This document shows positions 34,980 through 42,208 of a stretch of DNA of 64,000 nt, piece by piece. Position numbers and translations under genes: made by a program. The stretch is from Alphaproteobacteria bacterium. GTDB lineage: Bacteria > Pseudomonadota > Alphaproteobacteria > DSM-16000 > Inquilinaceae. Positions within the stretch are counted from its first letter, which is position 1. Every line of letters begins with the position of its first letter. The notes below the pieces were generated by a model. The model had not been told where the DNA came from. It saw nothing but the letters and a program-made list of their open reading frames with translations, and ran no database searches. Location of the stretch: contig JANQIX010000104.1 of the NCBI GenBank assembly GCA_028281925.1, forward strand, positions 62,001 to 126,000. Direction: 5' to 3'.

Positions 34980-37900
34980 TCAGGTCAGACTGTCGAAGAC
35001 GTCCTGGGCCTCTACGATGTCCGCCGTCTCCGGATCGCTCGCCACGCGGGACAGTGCATCTTCAAGCAGTGCCCGCGCGGCGGCTTCGTCCCCGCTGCGC
35101 AGCCTGGACCTAGCCAGCGATACACTGGCACGCAGATACAGCATCAGTGTTCCGTGGCTGAGCGCGGTCTCCCGCGCAATGTTGAAGCAGCGCTCCGCCT
35201 CGCTCCGGAACCGGCCTCCCTTCGCCGTCAGCAGCGATCCCTTCAGGCGCAAGAGTTCCGGATCGAAATAGGCCGGGCGTCCTCCGCGCCCTGGTGAAAG
35301 CGCCTGATTGACTGTCTCCAGTGCCTCCTCAAGACGGCCGGAGGCGGCGTATGACTCCGCGATCCAAGCCTCCGCACACGGGCGCGCCAACCCGGCACCT
35401 GTTGCAAGATAGCCCTCAAGACCCTTCTTCAGCCGGTCAATGCCACGTCGGTCACCCTTACGGTCCGCCGCGCGCCCAAGCTGCATCTCGGCCTGGGCGG
35501 CCCATTGCGCGAAGCTCTGCTGGCGCGCGATCCCGCATGCCGCCGACGCATGGCGTTCGGCAGCTTCGACATCGCGCAGGAACAGGCACATATTGGCGGC
35601 GAAAACCTGGGCAAAGGCCAGGCTGAAACCGTGATCCGCCTTCTTCGCCATGTTCAGGGCGCGCCGGCTCGCCGCCAACGCTGTACCGGCATTCCCTGTC
35701 AGAGCATGAAGCCACGAGAGATAGGATAGAGCCGCCGTGGCGAGGCTGACCCCAAACAGCACCAGATGGTCTTCCTGCTGATCGGGCGTGAACAGATCAA
35801 CGGCCTGCCGGAAATTCTTCTGCGCCTCGCCAAAGTCGCCGCTGTAGAAAAAACACACACCAAGTGTGTATTTGGCAGCCGCATGCGCGACCGGATCACC
35901 CGAATTTCCAGCTAGCGACAAGAACCGCTCAGACAGCTCGACGGCGATATCGAGGTTGGCACGTACCGTGTAGAAGCTCCACAACCCCCACAAGACATGG
36001 ATCGGCTCCCCGATCCGCGTCGTCTGCGAGGACAGCCACCGGGCGCGTGCGTAAATCGCCTCCACCTCGCTCGACGCGAAGCCGTGACTCGCCAAGAGCT
36101 GAGGTCCCAACAACAGCAGAAACCGCAGTTCTCGTTCGCTGCGCCGATCTTCCTCCGGGATCAGTTCAACCAGCGCCAGCGCCCTGCGGAAATGGCTGAT
36201 CGCCTCCTTGTGCGCGGAAACGCCGATCGCCTGCCTGCCTGCCACCTCCAGGAACTCGATCGCCTTCGACAGGTTGCCGCCTTCCGTGAAATGGTAGGCG
36301 ATCACCTCAGGCTGTGCGGCGATCTCGGCGCGAACCTGCTGCTCCAGCACCGACGCGATCCGACGGTGATGGGCAACACGCTGTTGCTTCAGGATCGAGC
36401 GGTAGGTGAATTCCTGCACCAACGCGTGCTTGAACTCGTACTGCACCTCGGGAACGCGCCCGATCCGGAAGATAAGGTCAGCCTCCTGAAGCTGCTTCAG
36501 GGCATCGTGCAGCGCCTGGGGCTCGGCACTGGCGACGGAACTCAGCTCGGTGAAGCTGAACCTCCGTCCGAAGACCGAAGCGATCTCAAGCACGCGGCGC
36601 GCCAAGCCAAGCCGATCGATGCGGGCCATCAAGGACGCTTGCAGGATATGCGGGATCTGCTCCGACGCCGCTGGATGCCGACCGGCCGGCTCGCCCGAGC
36701 CGGCCCCCAACGCCGGTTCCGCAAGCGGTTTGGCCAGCTCTTCCAGATACAGAGGGACGCCGTCGGCGCGCTCGACGATGCGCGCCATCCGGTCTAAGGA
36801 CAGTCCGCTCAGTTGCAGATCGGCAAGCATGCTGTTCGCCTCGGCATCCGTCAGCCGGCGAAGGGCGACAACGGTTCCCGCTCCCTCGTCGAGCCAGCCC
36901 GGCGGATCGCCCGGTCGGCGACTGATGATCATCATCACCCGATGGCGCGGGAGTATCTTCAGCAGCCTGCCCAAGAACTCACCAGTGGTCGGGTCGATCC
37001 AATGCACATCTTCAACAATCAGAAGAAGATGCTCCTTCTCGCACAGATTGATTACATGATCGACCAGTGCGTCGAGGATCTTTTCCTTCTGTTCCTGAGC
37101 GCTCAATCTTGTTCTGGGGTATCGATGACCACAGGACAATGCCAGTATCTTGCATAAGTATCGTGCAACTTCCTCCGTACTCAGCTTGTTTTCGCGAAGC
37201 CAGCGCTCAAGCCTGTCCACCTTTCTGTCGTCGGAGTCGGTCGCGGCGAAGCCCATGACGGACTTCAGGTACTGAACGATTGGGTAGAGTACGCTGCTCT
37301 GATGATGGGGAGAGCAATCGAGCTGCAGCAAGCTTGGGCCATTCGCCGCAATGCGTCCGCAGAATGTGTGGATCAGTCTGGACTTGCCGATACCGGGCTC
37401 GCCGAGGATCGTGACGTATCGCCCCGCCCCGATCGAGAGCGTCTTCCAGTGTTCAAGCATCTGCGCAAGCTCACGGTCGCGTCCAATCAGTCTGGTGAGA
37501 TGCGCTCCGAAGTGGCGCGCATCGAAGCGACTGCGGACCAGCTTCTCTCCGACGACGCTGTAGAGCTGAGCGTAAAGGGCGGACCGCCCCCCGTCGACCA
37601 CTCCGCCGATCGGCCGTGTCTCGAAGGCTGACTGGACGAGCGCATTGGTGGACGCCGCAATAATGACGGCGCCGCGATCAGCCTGCTGCTCGAGTTCTGT
37701 GGCGGCGAACAGGGCGTTGCCAGCGATCTGCGCCTCAAGGGGCCGGTCTGCGGAGGCTGCCGTTACGATCACTTCGCCGCTGGCAATCCCGCAACGCGCA
37801 ACGAGATCGGCGACGGTGTCGAGCCTGCCTACCGCTTGAACGGCCCTGACACCGGCGAGGACAGCCCGCTCCGGATCATGTTCCTGCGCCCTTGGATAGC

Positions 37901-39032
37901 CGAAGCCGATGATCAGACGGTCGGCGACGACATGGAAGCGGTACCCGCCATGCTCCCGGGCGATCGCAGCGCAGCAGGTACGGAACGCCTCCAGTGCGAC
38001 CGTGAGGTCTTCCGGATCGAGTTCGCCGCTCAACTCCGCCGCGTTGGCAAGACCGAGTGAGAGAACCGTCATCTCCCTGCGCTCTGCGACGCCGTCGTAG
38101 GCGGCGGGATCCGAGACCCCGGCAGTTGGCGATGGGCTGGGATTCGGCGTCCACCCGGAGTCGCCGACTGACGGTTCCCCAACGCCTCCCGGATAGCCGG
38201 CCGCCCCACCTGGTTCGAAGGCGCCATGTCCTCCGCCGGGAACCCCATGCGCCGCCATGCCAGCCGCGTCACCGCTGAACATCCGGCCCGGCACCGACTC
38301 CTTGCGAATCTGCTCCGCAAGCATGACGGTCTCCACGGAGGGGGACGCATCGAGCTCGCGTTTCATGATCTCTCGGCAGCGGTTGAATTGCTGCAGCGCT
38401 TCCCCGCGACGTCCGGTGCGCGTGTAGAGGCGCATCATGGCCAGATGCGTACTCTCATGGGTGGGCTCAAGCACTAGCACACGCTTCGCGGTCTCGATTG
38501 CGCGACCCAAATCGTCCTTCGCCTCATAGTGGTTCAAAAGCACAAGCAGTGTCGCGAGCGCGGCATCGTGATGCTTCTGGCGTTCCCACCACACCCATTC
38601 CTCGAAAGGCTCCGACCGGACCAGTAGCCCCTTCAGAAATGGGCCTTGATAACCATCCACTGCCGTTTGCAGGCTTTCGACATCGCTTCGTGAGCTCAGA
38701 TCCCAGAATCTGGCCGTGTCGACATCAATTTCTGTGTCTGAAAACTGTATCTTGTCGCGACTGGCTTGGATCGGATCGAGGCCTGCGTTCGAAAACACTT
38801 TCCGCAACGTAGCCAATTCCTGACGCAAACTTGCACGCGACTGTTCTTCACCACTGCGCGACCAAAGCAAGGTCGCGACATCATCCCGCGCGAGGGAGCG
38901 GCCGGCCGATTGCGCCAGATAGGCCAGCAGACCCCAACACTTACGCGTGGGGAGTGAGAGCACCATACCCGTGGTCGTGACAATTTCGTAACCGCCAAGA
39001 AACCTCAGTTCGGCTCGCGTCACGTGCTTCAC
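34980..39032 (-). CDS. Large SARP-type regulator: wHTH-BTAD, degenerate cyclase-like domain, AAA ATPase, TPR
   Basis: A 1350-residue cytosolic regulator. A winged-helix DNA-binding domain (about 7-97) and a BTAD (about 100-245) give the SARP/AfsR front end. A Gly/Pro-rich linker (about 250-312) follows. Next is a class III cyclase-like domain (about 318-495) in which the first metal Asp is missing (VLSLGLANA where FCDLVGST is usual; Gly 327), while the second Asp is kept (VVADRLIIGFG, Asp 371). An ATPase follows with Walker A GEPGIGKS (544-551) and Walker B LLLIVEDVHWID (669-680). TPR-like helices fill about 950-1340. Start is GTG 39032. It is divergent from the transglutaminase-like/histidine decarboxylase operon and is its likely activator. 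Confidence 0.9.
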   Translation of the reverse strand: MKHVTRAELRFLGGYEIVTTTGMVLSLPTRKCWGLLAYLAQSAGRSLARDDVATLLWSRSGEEQSRASLRQELATLRKVFSNAGLDPIQASRDKIQFSDTEIDVDTARFWDLSSRSDVESLQTAVDGYQGPFLKGLLVRSEPFEEWVWWERQKHHDAALATLLVLLNHYEAKDDLGRAIETAKRVLVLEPTHESTHLAMMRLYTRTGRRGEALQQFNRCREIMKRELDASPSVETVMLAEQIRKESVPGRMFSGDAAGMAAHGVPGGGHGAFEPGGAAGYPGGVGEPSVGDSGWTPNPSPSPTAGVSDPAAYDGVAERREMTVLSLGLANAAELSGELDPEDLTVALEAFRTCCAAIAREHGGYRFHVVADRLIIGFGYPRAQEHDPERAVLAGVRAVQAVGRLDTVADLVARCGIASGEVIVTAASADRPLEAQIAGNALFAATELEQQADRGAVIIAASTNALVQSAFETRPIGGVVDGGRSALYAQLYSVVGEKLVRSRFDARHFGAHLTRLIGRDRELAQMLEHWKTLSIGAGRYVTILGEPGIGKSRLIHTFCGRIAANGPSLLQLDCSPHHQSSVLYPIVQYLKSVMGFAATDSDDRKVDRLERWLRENKLSTEEVARYLCKILALSCGHRYPRTRLSAQEQKEKILDALVDHVINLCEKEHLLLIVEDVHWIDPTTGEFLGRLLKILPRHRVMMIISRRPGDPPGWLDEGAGTVVALRRLTDAEANSMLADLQLSGLSLDRMARIVERADGVPLYLEELAKPLAEPALGAGSGEPAGRHPAASEQIPHILQASLMARIDRLGLARRVLEIASVFGRRFSFTELSSVASAEPQALHDALKQLQEADLIFRIGRVPEVQYEFKHALVQEFTYRSILKQQRVAHHRRIASVLEQQVRAEIAAQPEVIAYHFTEGGNLSKAIEFLEVAGRQAIGVSAHKEAISHFRRALALVELIPEEDRRSERELRFLLLLGPQLLASHGFASSEVEAIYARARWLSSQTTRIGEPIHVLWGLWSFYTVRANLDIAVELSERFLSLAGNSGDPVAHAAAKYTLGVCFFYSGDFGEAQKNFRQAVDLFTPDQQEDHLVLFGVSLATAALSYLSWLHALTGNAGTALAASRRALNMAKKADHGFSLAFAQVFAANMCLFLRDVEAAERHASAACGIARQQSFAQWAAQAEMQLGRAADRKGDRRGIDRLKKGLEGYLATGAGLARPCAEAWIAESYAASGRLEEALETVNQALSPGRGGRPAYFDPELLRLKGSLLTAKGGRFRSEAERCFNIARETALSHGTLMLYLRASVSLARSRLRSGDEAAARALLEDALSRVASDPETADIVEAQDVFDSLT

Positions 39033-39100
39033 TCGCTATATGCAAAGTCCGAGGCTGGGAGCCCGATCAAGGGATGTTCCGCACGGCATGGCAAGTCGAA

Positions 39101-39133
39101 TTTGCACATCATTTGCGGTAATTTTGCACGGCA
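39101..39133 (+). promoter_or_regulatory. Three direct repeats at 11-bp spacing (probable SARP binding sites)
   Basis: TTTGCACATCA (39101), TTTGCGGTAAT (39112) and TTTGCACGGCA (39123) lie head to tail with no gap. The TTTGC cores repeat every 11 bp, one DNA turn, the arrangement bound by SARP/AfsR proteins in actinomycetes. The region separates the regulator gene from the divergent operon. Repeats are seen directly; the binding protein is inferred. Confidence 0.65.
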
Positions 39134-39145
39134 ATGTGATCGCCA

Positions 39146-39178
39146 CTTCAGGATGTGGACAACAGGCCGCACCTGAAG
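39146..39178 (+). promoter_or_regulatory. Hairpin in the leader of the transglutaminase-like gene
   Basis: Outer arms CTTCAGG (39146-39152) and CCTGAAG (39172-39178), inner arms TGTGG and CCGCA, one bulged A, 8-nt loop. It lies 25 nt before the ribosome site of the gene starting at 39214. Could affect mRNA stability or initiation. Confidence 0.5.
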
Positions 39179-39213
39179 CTTGGTTGTCGCCTCGCAAACG
39201 TCGGAGAATGCAT

Positions 39214-40578
39214 ATGCCGGATCGGCAGGAAGACGCCGCCGAAGCAAAGAGCGCCGCCCATGGGACGGGATTGAGCGTCAGCGGTATCACCTTGGACGGC
39301 AGTGACCAGCACTACCACGACATCGTGAAGCATCTGGCAGTGCCTGCGGAACGGCAGGACACGCCGGTCTTCCGTAATGGCTCACGGACCGAAATCGCAG
39401 CGCTCGAGCACCCCACGCTGATCGAGATCGTGGATGCCATGACGCAATCCAGCACGCCGATTCGATTCGACCGGCTGGAGGATGCACAACTCGACTTCCG
39501 GCTCCGGCTCCACGCCATCGACGCCATGACCAATTTCAATACCGGCAAATGGGATGCCGACTATTACAACGAAGATGCCGACATCAGGCCGCAGATCGGC
39601 AACACCGTCAGCCCAGGCAACGCGAAGGGCGAAGGCGCCACTCCGACCCCATCTGCCGGTCGGCACGGCGGCATCTACTGGCAATTCATGGATCCGTCCG
39701 ACCCCTGGGATGCCGAGTGGCAGCAGATTAAGGGCACCCACCCGGCGGAGGGTCTTGAGCCCACCTACGGCCATCTTCTGCCGTTTCGTGGCGAATGTGC
39801 CGGAGCGTTCCAGCTAGCCGTCTATCTCGGGATCCTGAAGGGCCTGGGCAGAGAGTATCTGGAGCGAGTTCAGGACACCTACGGCCTCTTCTATGTCGGC
39901 CCCTGGCGGATCGACGGTCAGCTCAACCCGGCTGCGGAATTCATGCTGCCCGCCAGCCTTGAGGATCCGCCGATTCCCGGCGACTATATGTACTTCAAGA
40001 ACAAGGATGATTACCTGAAATGGGCCCCGAACGGATTCTGGGTCGGTCTCAACGCCATCTATGTCGGCAAAGACGACCTGGGCATGCGGCACTATTCGGG
40101 GCTCGGCGCATCCTGGCTCAGCGAGGTCAATCTGCGCAGTCAGGTGGTGAATGCCTATTACCATGACTGCTACCCGCACACGATCAAGGACCCACAGAAA
40201 GAGTGCCGGTTCACCGAACGCCGCCTGCTGGCACCACCGCCGAAGATGACGACACGACAAACTCAGTCCGCGCCCCAGGCCCGAGCGACACTCACAGAGC
40301 CGACGCGCGATCAGTTGCGGGCCGCCGGCTTTGAGGAGCCGGAAGATGGGGTGTTCGTGCACGCCGGCATCTCCATGGGGCAACTCGGTCAGGCGCTCGG
40401 CATCGATGCTCGCCATCTGGCGCAGGTGCGCAGCACAGGGCTGGCCAAACCCCAGTACCGCGTCCGCCTGGGCAACCTCGCCTGCATCGTGGAAAGGCAC
40501 GAAAGCGCGGAAGCACTGCTGGGCGATGCCAGCACGGTGAGCGTCTCGATCAACTTCGGCCGGCCGATCAGCTCCTGA
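39214..40578 (+). CDS. Transglutaminase-like protein (Bacillus Tgl family) with extra C-terminal domain
   Basis: A 454-residue protein. Residues about 79-300 align by eye with B. subtilis Tgl, protein-glutamine gamma-glutamyltransferase: TPIRFDRLEDAQLDFRLRL, then the active-site FRGECAGAFQLAVYLG (Glu194-Cys195), IPGDYMYFKNKDD, and GLNAIYVGKDDLGMRHYSGLG (His293). The position of Tgl Glu187 holds Leu279, but the Glu before the Cys, said to be a redundant partner in Tgl, is kept. A Ser/Thr/Pro linker (about 340-362) leads to a roughly 90-residue C-terminal domain I do not know. ATG 39214 has GGAGA 6 nt upstream. No signal peptide. 72 nt before the histidine decarboxylase gene. Confidence 0.72.
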   Translation: MPDRQEDAAEAKSAAHGTGLSVSGITLDGSDQHYHDIVKHLAVPAERQDTPVFRNGSRTEIAALEHPTLIEIVDAMTQSSTPIRFDRLEDAQLDFRLRLHAIDAMTNFNTGKWDADYYNEDADIRPQIGNTVSPGNAKGEGATPTPSAGRHGGIYWQFMDPSDPWDAEWQQIKGTHPAEGLEPTYGHLLPFRGECAGAFQLAVYLGILKGLGREYLERVQDTYGLFYVGPWRIDGQLNPAAEFMLPASLEDPPIPGDYMYFKNKDDYLKWAPNGFWVGLNAIYVGKDDLGMRHYSGLGASWLSEVNLRSQVVNAYYHDCYPHTIKDPQKECRFTERRLLAPPPKMTTRQTQSAPQARATLTEPTRDQLRAAGFEEPEDGVFVHAGISMGQLGQALGIDARHLAQVRSTGLAKPQYRVRLGNLACIVERHESAEALLGDASTVSVSINFGRPISS

Positions 40579-40608
40579 TCCACGACCGCCGTCAGCCCTG
40601 TCCCTAGA

Positions 40609-40630
40609 GCCGGCCGATCAGTCGGCCGGC
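40609..40630 (+). promoter_or_regulatory. Hairpin between the transglutaminase-like and histidine decarboxylase genes
   Basis: Perfect 9-bp arms GCCGGCCGA (40609-40617) and TCGGCCGGC (40622-40630) with a 4-nt loop. The AGGAGAAG ribosome site of the decarboxylase gene begins right after it, and no T-run follows. A processing or stability element that sets the ratio of the two products is likely. Confidence 0.6.
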
Positions 40631-40650
40631 ATCAGGAGAAGACGTTCGCC

Positions 40651-41508
40651 ATGGATTTAAAAGATGTCGTGAACGGCGCCATCGGCCCCTTCCCCGACAA
40701 TTGCGCCGGCTATATGAACCCGCCCAGCCAGGGCATCGGCTACATCGCCGCGCTGAAGCTGTCGCTCGGCACGGTCGTCGCCGATATGGACGACGGGCTG
40801 GAGGGCATCGTTTCGTACGACCGTGCCGAGGCCGCCGATGCCTATATCGGCCAGATCAACATGCTGACCGCATCGTCGTTCTGCGGCTTGAACGGCGCAG
40901 TATGGGGCTATGACCTGGCCCGGGCCGACGGACTGCGCAACGGCAATGTGCAGCCCAAGATGATGCTCGACCGGCATGACGGGGCAAAGGTGCCGATCTG
41001 GTCGATGATGCCGCTGCTCGATGCGGGTTATCGGTTATTCGGATCGCGCGAGCAGCGGCGGTTCAACCCGCTTCCCGGGGCCATGGTCGTCTGCGCCAAC
41101 AAGTCGTGGACGATAAACCCGAAGACGGAAACGGTGATCTGGTGCGCGCTGGCGCTCGCCATTCCGGAAGACCGCAACGTTGCGGCCAACCTGTTCATCG
41201 AAGATGGCTCCGACACCGAGAGCACGGGGCTTAAGCCGCTGATCAACCTCGAACGCAACATCGCGAAGTCGATCCTGCGCTGCGGTCAGGACCAGGGCGT
41301 CCGCTATAAGGAGATCTTCGTCGAGAGCAAGATGCTGCCGATCAGCCATGGCACGGTCGGCTGCGCGCTGGCCTGCGTTCCCTATGTCACGCTGCCGAAC
41401 GCGGCCATCCCGCCCGGCAAGCCGCCGTCATCCCTGATCGACATGACCATCGGCGAATGGGAAGAGGCGCTGGGGCTGCCGCCGCTGCCTCCGTATCCAG
41501 CCGGGTAA
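40651..41508 (+). CDS. hdcA: Pyruvoyl-dependent histidine decarboxylase proenzyme
   Basis: A 285-residue proenzyme of the pyruvoyl histidine decarboxylase family, which converts histidine to histamine and CO2. The self-cleavage site is MLTASSFCGLNGAVWGYDLA: cleavage is expected between Ser75 and Ser76, giving a beta chain (1-75) and an alpha chain with N-terminal pyruvoyl group. VSYDRAEAADAYIGQIN keeps Tyr56 and Asp57, matching the substrate-binding Tyr62-Asp63 of Lactobacillus 30a. LFIEDG (Glu184) fits the catalytic Glu197 region. RRF-NPLPGA and ANKSW also match. ATG 40651 follows AGGAGAAG. No pyridoxal-phosphate site. Known mainly in Gram-positive bacteria, so its presence here suggests transfer. 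Confidence 0.88.
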   Translation: MDLKDVVNGAIGPFPDNCAGYMNPPSQGIGYIAALKLSLGTVVADMDDGLEGIVSYDRAEAADAYIGQINMLTASSFCGLNGAVWGYDLARADGLRNGNVQPKMMLDRHDGAKVPIWSMMPLLDAGYRLFGSREQRRFNPLPGAMVVCANKSWTINPKTETVIWCALALAIPEDRNVAANLFIEDGSDTESTGLKPLINLERNIAKSILRCGQDQGVRYKEIFVESKMLPISHGTVGCALACVPYVTLPNAAIPPGKPPSSLIDMTIGEWEEALGLPPLPPYPAG

Positions 41509-41520
41509 TCGCTGGACGGC

Positions 41521-41548
41521 CGCCTTGCCATCTCAATCCGGCAAGGCG
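41521..41548. terminator. Bidirectional hairpin between hdcA and the GNAT gene
   Basis: Perfect 9-bp arms CGCCTTGCC (41521-41529) and GGCAAGGCG (41540-41548), 10-nt loop, starting 12 nt after the hdcA stop. The facing GNAT gene ends inside it (stop at 41533). It closes the decarboxylase operon. No T-run. Confidence 0.6.
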
Positions 41549-42054
41549 CCCCTGGCGCCGCGAACCAGGACCGACAGATCGGACCACTGGACCTTGATGC
41601 CGGGCAGACTATGGCCGAACACGGTCTTGTCCGCCGTCTCCACGCGGATGCCTCCGAGCCGCTCGTAGAGCGCAAGCGCCCGGCGGTTCCCTTCCAGCAC
41701 CCAAAGATAGGCCGTGGATTGGCCCACGCTTATCAGACGGGTCGCCGCCGCCACCATCAAGGCACGGCCCAGGCCCCGGGAACGTCTGGCAGGGTCCACA
41801 TGAAGGTTGTCGATGAAGGGCTCTTGCCGGCACCACACGGCGATGAAGCCGGCGATCCCATTGTCTTCGGCGACCAGAACGACGTCGTCCGGCCGGATCT
41901 CAACAGTTTGCCAGTGGCGTTCAAGGTCGGCTTCCACACCCTGCCGAAGGTAGTCGTCGGGCAGGATTCCCTGATACGCGTCTTTCCAGCTCGCTGCGTG
42001 GATCGCCGCAATGGCTAGAAGGTCATGCAGGCCCGCAGGACGGATCTGGACCAT
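41533..42054 (-). CDS. GNAT-family N-acetyltransferase
   Basis: A 173-residue acetyltransferase. It opens VQIRPAGLHDLLAIAAIHAASWKDAYQGILPDDYL, the usual RimI/PhnO-like start. The acetyl-CoA pyrophosphate loop is RRSRGLGRALMVAA (R/Q-x-x-G-x-G/A motif A, about 92-105), followed by LWVLEGNRRALALYERLGG, the motif B strand and helix. ATG 42054 has GGAGGAGAG just upstream. It converges on hdcA. Acetylation of an amine such as histamine is conceivable given the neighbour, but the two are not co-transcribed and the substrate is unknown. Confidence 0.85.
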   Translation of the reverse strand: MVQIRPAGLHDLLAIAAIHAASWKDAYQGILPDDYLRQGVEADLERHWQTVEIRPDDVVLVAEDNGIAGFIAVWCRQEPFIDNLHVDPARRSRGLGRALMVAAATRLISVGQSTAYLWVLEGNRRALALYERLGGIRVETADKTVFGHSLPGIKVQWSDLSVLVRGARGALPD

Positions 42055-42208
42055 CTCTCTCCTCCCGGCCGGCCGATGTCCCTGACCCGATACGGCGGAC
42101 ATCTTCGGCCCCAGGCTGCAGTCCTATCATCGCCTCCCGCGGTGAAGGGGTGTATTCCGCATGGCGACGAGACGCGATGCAACCCGCTGCCTGCAGTGAG
42201 GAGAGACG

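Follow-up and report, generated by a model that had tools for sequence, protein, structure and literature searches.

A transglutaminase-like gene linked to a pyruvoyl histidine decarboxylase gene in Alphaproteobacteria: a candidate protein-histaminylation system

Protein histaminylation and related monoaminylations have been discussed in animals, where transglutaminase 2 (histaminylation, serotonylation) joins a primary amine, made elsewhere, to a protein glutamine. The same chemistry is proposed here for a bacterial locus, though its enzyme belongs to another transglutaminase family, and the locus pairs amine supply and transfer genetically. The closest described relative of that enzyme is Tgl of Bacillus subtilis, which is active as made, incorporates primary amines without cofactors and produces Gln-Lys cross-links (PMC6490927). 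The Tgl mutants E115A, C116A and H200A are inactive, E187A retains about 60% of transamidation because Glu115 substitutes, and Trp149, Tyr171 and Asn188 form the glutamine-side lining of the tunnel (PMC6490927).

Pyruvoyl histidine decarboxylases of the HdcA type (Lactobacillus 30a and relatives; PF02329) are found in Gram-positive loci linked to a histidine-histamine antiporter or an amino acid/polyamine antiporter. In lactobacillar loci hdcA is followed by hdcB, with hisS also in the cluster, and Staphylococcus capitis has hdcA without an adjacent hdcB. For the regulator considered below, the nearest model is PimR of Streptomyces natalensis, whose operator comprises three heptamer repeats separated by 4-bp spacers; PimR and other SARP-LAL regulators govern secondary-metabolite clusters (PMC5930380). 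Each component of our locus belongs to a known family, and the literature searched yielded no description of their combination: queries for a pyruvoyl decarboxylase with a transglutaminase, and for histamine or histidine decarboxylase with Roseibium or Labrenzia, returned nothing relevant, nor was any bacterial system pairing amine synthesis with transfer found there.

The gene trio and its regulator

Within the window (the whole 64,000-nucleotide stretch that was analysed), a large regulator gene is divergent from two co-oriented genes, one for a transglutaminase-like protein (TGL) and one for a histidine decarboxylase (HDC):

34980..39032, minus strand: SARP-LAL (PimR-like) regulator, 1350 aa (Pfam; alignment of ten TGL-linked homologues)
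39033..39213, no strand: divergent intergenic/promoter region, 181 nt
39099..39131, plus strand: putative SARP operator, three direct repeats of 11-bp period (core TTTGCRS at 39101-39107, 39112-39118 and 39123-39129)
39214..40578, plus strand: TGL, 454 aa, Tgl-family (PF20085) core with an extra C-terminal domain (Pfam, homologues, PDB profile match to Tgl)
39793..39798, plus strand: predicted Glu-Cys catalytic pair of TGL (B. subtilis Glu115-Cys116), invariant in ten homologues
40090..40092, plus strand: TGL His (B. subtilis His200), invariant
40297..40578, plus strand: C-terminal domain of TGL, about 90 aa, the sole well-modelled part (pLDDT about 80)
40651..41508, plus strand: HDC proenzyme, 285 aa (PF02329 match, alignment, homologues)
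40873..40878, plus strand: predicted Ser75-Ser76 self-cleavage site of HDC (Ser81-Ser82 of the Lactobacillus 30a enzyme), by alignment

The first-pass annotation had placed the same three genes at these positions, and Pfam agrees, matching HDC (PF02329), TGL (PF20085) and the BTAD, AAA_16 and TPR domains of the regulator. It had also given an intergenic region of 181 nt. Although the open frame of TGL begins at 39040, the homologues have nothing corresponding to its first 58 codons, and the ATG at 39214 is preceded, 7 nt upstream, by GGAG (39203-39206); with 39214 as the likely start, the intergenic region is indeed 181 nt. A scan of the region for sigma-70 promoters and terminators found none. 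Values of dN/dS between 0.04 and 0.12 against the same-genus copy indicate that all three genes are under purifying selection. A GNAT acetyltransferase gene (41533-42102) lies convergent with HDC and is not one of those that the window has in common with the Roseibium marinum or Salipiger flanks described below.

The regulator had been described as a wHTH-BTAD-AAA-TPR protein, and all of those domains were matched, to which we add a degenerate class III cyclase domain that the description did not name. The order is wHTH (residues 29-90), BTAD (118-243; Pfam 5.9e-17), degenerate cyclase homology (319-475), AAA_16 (514-702; 8.5e-21) and then TPRs to the C-terminus. By sequence, this is the SARP-LAL architecture, a SARP wHTH and BTAD followed by a large ATP-binding region with cyclase-like and AAA parts, as in PimR. 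Unlike PimR, the protein is alphaproteobacterial, its proposed target is tgl-hdc, and some of its relatives (type B, below) lack the DNA-binding part.

The repeats near the proposed target promoter score 17/21 over three copies at period 11, a value equalled by none of 1000 dinucleotide shuffles. They fit the pattern of a SARP operator (heptamers, 11-bp period, promoter-proximal), resembling the PimR site with its 4-bp spacers, and are a putative site. The Salipiger intergenic region holds a TTTTGCG pair at 11 bp, equalled in 16 of 1000 shuffles, and that of R. marinum an 11-bp pair which alone is no better than chance, shuffles often equalling it. The natural reading is that the regulator would directly activate tgl-hdc and possibly regulate itself.

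The likeness to PimR, a controller of secondary-metabolite genes (PMC5930380), brings in another explanation, namely that TGL couples histamine to a peptide or other small compound (a histamine-capped metabolite, for instance, or gamma-glutamyl-histamine), the genes being a tiny biosynthetic cluster with the SARP-LAL protein as pathway-specific activator, as in antibiotic clusters of Streptomyces. The cassette is compact, mobile and, in Salipiger, plasmid-borne, and the regulator resembles TIGR03903 of TOMM clusters in the domains they have in common. We nevertheless consider this unlikely, as the flanks have in common neither a precursor peptide nor a further biosynthetic gene nor an exporter, and TGL keeps Trp149, Tyr171 and Asn188, the protein-donor tunnel residues of Tgl. 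A TOMM cluster proper was rejected: against TIGR03903 (TOMM kinase/cyclase fusion) the regulator scores 496 bits, short of the 706-bit cut-off, with the match beginning at profile position 279, and it has no kinase domain. An anti-phage system was likewise rejected, PADLOC giving only weak generic ATPase, TPR and cyclase matches and none for TGL or HDC.

Linkage and co-occurrence across genomes

A search for TGL in one genome per species gave eight loci. The window's layout (regulator divergent, TGL, then HDC; type A) is identical in a MAG of the same genus (L005) and in two Roseibium genomes (L006, L007, R. marinum), where identity to the window is 35% for the regulator, 46% for TGL and 70% for HDC. 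Among 72,556 plasmids there was a single TGL match, on a plasmid of Salipiger sp. CCB-MM3, where the gene, annotated as 'hypothetical protein', adjoins an HDC 73% identical to ours, with a gene for an AAA family ATPase running divergently from it; the window HDC thus shares 70-73% identity with its TGL-linked counterparts in R. marinum and Salipiger. When the flanks of the window, R. marinum and Salipiger are compared, only the regulator, TGL and HDC are common to them and the other neighbours differ. The gap between TGL and HDC is short (about 72 nt in the window, 3 nt in R. marinum, 19 nt in Salipiger), as it would be in an operon. The first-pass annotation had named conserved linkage in other genomes beforehand as the point on which its proposal could fail; the cassette is kept in three distant alphaproteobacterial lineages, those of the window genus, Roseibium and Salipiger.

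The flanks of the window, R. marinum and Salipiger contain no antiporter gene, in keeping with the absence already remarked on for the window, and neither HdcB nor hisS adjoins the TGL-linked HDC loci. This sets them apart from the Gram-positive hdc acid-resistance clusters, and bears on a second explanation, that HDC functions in acid resistance or in the use of histidine, its transporter being encoded elsewhere, and that TGL is a co-regulated lysine cross-linker independent of histamine. Though Gram-positive HDCs adjoin an antiporter and B. subtilis Tgl does form Gln-Lys cross-links (PMC6490927), the lack of an adjacent antiporter, the dependence of TGL on HDC described below and the absence of an evident TGL export signal make this unlikely.

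In a second arrangement (type B; Roseibium/Labrenzia/Stappia, L008-L012), TGL follows a gene of the same orientation for an AAA-TPR protein (about 1010-1020 aa) that lacks the wHTH and BTAD, and no HDC is adjacent. Whole-genome searches found HDC in every type B genome, about 1.5 Mb distant in one of them (G758). In a tree, the TGL-linked regulators and AAA-TPR proteins group in a single clade, separate from paralogues of the same genomes (support 100/99), and hence the regulator belongs to the gene set.

HDC is present in all 12 TGL-positive genomes or records found, and TGL without HDC was seen in none of them, unlinked loci included. Of the 87 genomes covered in the family of the type B genomes, 9 have TGL and 10 a full-length HDC, which occurs in 9/9 of the TGL-positive against 1/78 of the TGL-negative genomes (G811); Fisher's test gives p = 2e-11 with relatedness ignored, and as the genomes are related members of one family the independent events are few. 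Across the class both genes are rare (HDC in 2/385 genomes, TGL in 1/385). HDC also occurs without TGL (G811, G302 and others), and so has TGL-independent uses. In the HDC tree, several branches of which are long or open so that we rely only on the split between linked and unlinked sequences, the linked HDCs (window, R. marinum, Salipiger) separate from the unlinked Roseibium and Firmicutes HDCs with support of 100/99. Since the unlinked Roseibium HDCs group with Firmicutes HDC, one TGL family partners two HDC lineages, which are only about 44% alike, and this makes hitch-hiking of neighbours hard to invoke. A functional link between TGL and HDC is well supported.

The two enzymes

TGL matches PF20085 with E=1.2e-10 (41.5 bits against a gathering cut-off of 23.7), as do 10/10 of its homologues. 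Against the NCBIfam equivalog for spore-coat Tgl (PRK03187) it scores 26.6 bits, far under the cut-off of 307, and it is therefore not filed as a spore-coat Tgl. The relationship to Tgl is distant (PDB profile E 7e-4; about 15% identity in structural alignment), yet the equivalents of Glu115, Cys116, Trp149, Tyr171, Asn188 and His200 are all kept in the ten homologues. Unlike Tgl, TGL has an extra C-terminal domain, and all ten sequences carry Leu where the catalytic dyad of Tgl has Glu187, an active-site change seen throughout; TGL also occurs in Alphaproteobacteria, which form no spores, and has HDC and an AAA-TPR protein as its partners. As every residue essential in B. subtilis Tgl is kept, TGL is predicted to function as a transamidase, though its active site is unusual. 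Glu187 is dispensable in B. subtilis Tgl, though its loss here is still notable.

The same change could alter the choice of nucleophile, which would make TGL a glutamine deamidase or amidase using water, with histamine its regulator or product partner. We consider this very unlikely, given that E187A of B. subtilis Tgl keeps about 60% of transamidation through Glu115 (PMC6490927), whose equivalent is invariant in TGL.

Structural modelling added little for the core. Two AF2 runs of TGL with 9 homologues gave mean pLDDT of 45 and 46 with a poor catalytic core; the best structural match of the poor model (mean pLDDT 46) was B. subtilis Tgl, 4p8i (Z 6.7 over 175 residues, the next match 4.4), and Foldseek found no match below E 0.001. 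The well-modelled C-terminal domain has no Pfam match at E<=10 and no convincing known fold by structural comparison; a LysM reading made by eye finds no support in either. Inspection reveals no evident signal peptide or export signal in TGL.

HDC matches PF02329 strongly (E=5.9e-70; 236 bits against a cut-off of 25) and is alignable to the solved Lactobacillus 30a enzyme. Tyr62, Asp63, Glu66, Ser81-Ser82, Phe195 and Glu197 (Lactobacillus numbering) have self-cleavage and histidine-binding/catalytic roles in HDC, and all are kept by the HDCs of TGL-positive genomes, in the motifs YDR-E, Ser-Ser and F-x-E, a single A-to-S change near these residues being seen in one of them. Cleavage at the Ser-Ser pair would turn Ser76 into the pyruvoyl group. 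Histidine is the likely substrate, though this is not assured by the score against the TIGR00541 equivalog (222.5 bits, cut-off 346.65), and HDC differs from HdcA in falling below that cut-off as well as in its linkage to TGL.

With both enzymes in view, a further possibility is that TGL acts on HDC as a maturation factor, inhibitor or scaffold, in the role of HdcB. The genes are adjacent and co-oriented in type A loci, and the hdcB that follows hdcA in lactobacilli is not seen at TGL loci. The TGL and HdcB profiles, however, are unmatched (hhalign probability 0.1%), which leaves the idea that TGL replaces this Gram-positive maturation factor without sequence support. Furthermore, hdcA of S. 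capitis has no adjacent hdcB, TGL partners two distant HDC lineages, many HDCs occur without TGL, and TGL keeps the transglutaminase catalytic residues; such a role thus appears quite unlikely.

Proposed histamine transfer and HDC relatives

The reading we prefer is a self-contained TGL-HDC system, activated by its regulator, in which histamine would be attached to protein glutamines; we put its probability at roughly 45%. The SARP-LAL regulator would sense a signal and switch on the divergent tgl-hdc operon via the 11-bp-spaced repeats, and the HDC proenzyme would self-cleave at Ser75-Ser76, acquire its pyruvoyl group and make histamine in the cytosol. The TGL Cys would form a thioester with a protein glutamine, which histamine would resolve to leave gamma-glutamyl-histamine on the target (protein histaminylation). 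The first candidate for a partner or target of TGL is the AAA-TPR protein, because it stays with TGL even where it lacks the DNA-binding part. That the two enzymes are active, that histamine is the amine and that a protein provides the acyl group are inferred, as is the target. That cytosolic histamine is used by TGL is suggested by the dependence of TGL on HDC and by the kept specificity residues of HDC; the kept glutamine-side residues of TGL, its lack of an evident export signal and the lack of a linked antiporter also favour histaminylation, while the change of Glu187 to Leu, the occurrence of HDC without TGL, the distant relation to Tgl and the poorly modelled core speak against it. More tentative is a dedicated bacterial protein-histaminylation system, in which a regulated operon would put intracellular histamine onto glutamines of a specific protein, possibly the AAA-TPR partner, where it would act as an endogenous post-translational signal.

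The pairing of a predicted histamine maker with a predicted amine-attaching enzyme in marine and environmental Alphaproteobacteria suggests that bacteria may label proteins of their own with histamine. If true, bacterial histamine would have a role inside the cell and Tgl-family enzymes a function outside spore formers, and a compact enzyme for amine labelling would become available. It would amount to modification by a transglutaminase that has its own amine supply, and would be categorically new if bacterial histaminylation were demonstrated. As the pair is conserved in culturable Roseibium and Salipiger, the proposal is directly testable with two genes.

Several observations concern HDC relatives and individual records. 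The MAG contig JANQQD010000043.1 (L005) is titled Anaerolineae, and its HDC matches that of G001, the window's same-genus relative; apparently the label is wrong or the bin mixed. An HDC remnant with two stops (G798:C1:115120-115329; L043, L066) occurs in one of the 87 genomes above, which lacks TGL. No TGL was found in viral contigs, nor among 397 genomes from the family that includes G559, a set without a positive control. HDC-like proteins without TGL (Rhizobium, Methylocystis, G559) deviate at some active-site residues. Those on Rhizobium plasmids (L050:5956-6948, L051:5956-6948) have GDRCR for YDRAE and Thr for Ser81 and may represent a pyruvoyl enzyme that acts on another substrate. Those of Methylocystis (L049:5722-6879) and G559 (L015:9078-10142), with FDRAE, a changed Phe of F-x-E and no nearby TGL, may form another specificity group. 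Finally, two Firmicutes-like HDC loci are present on IMG/VR contigs (L046, L047).
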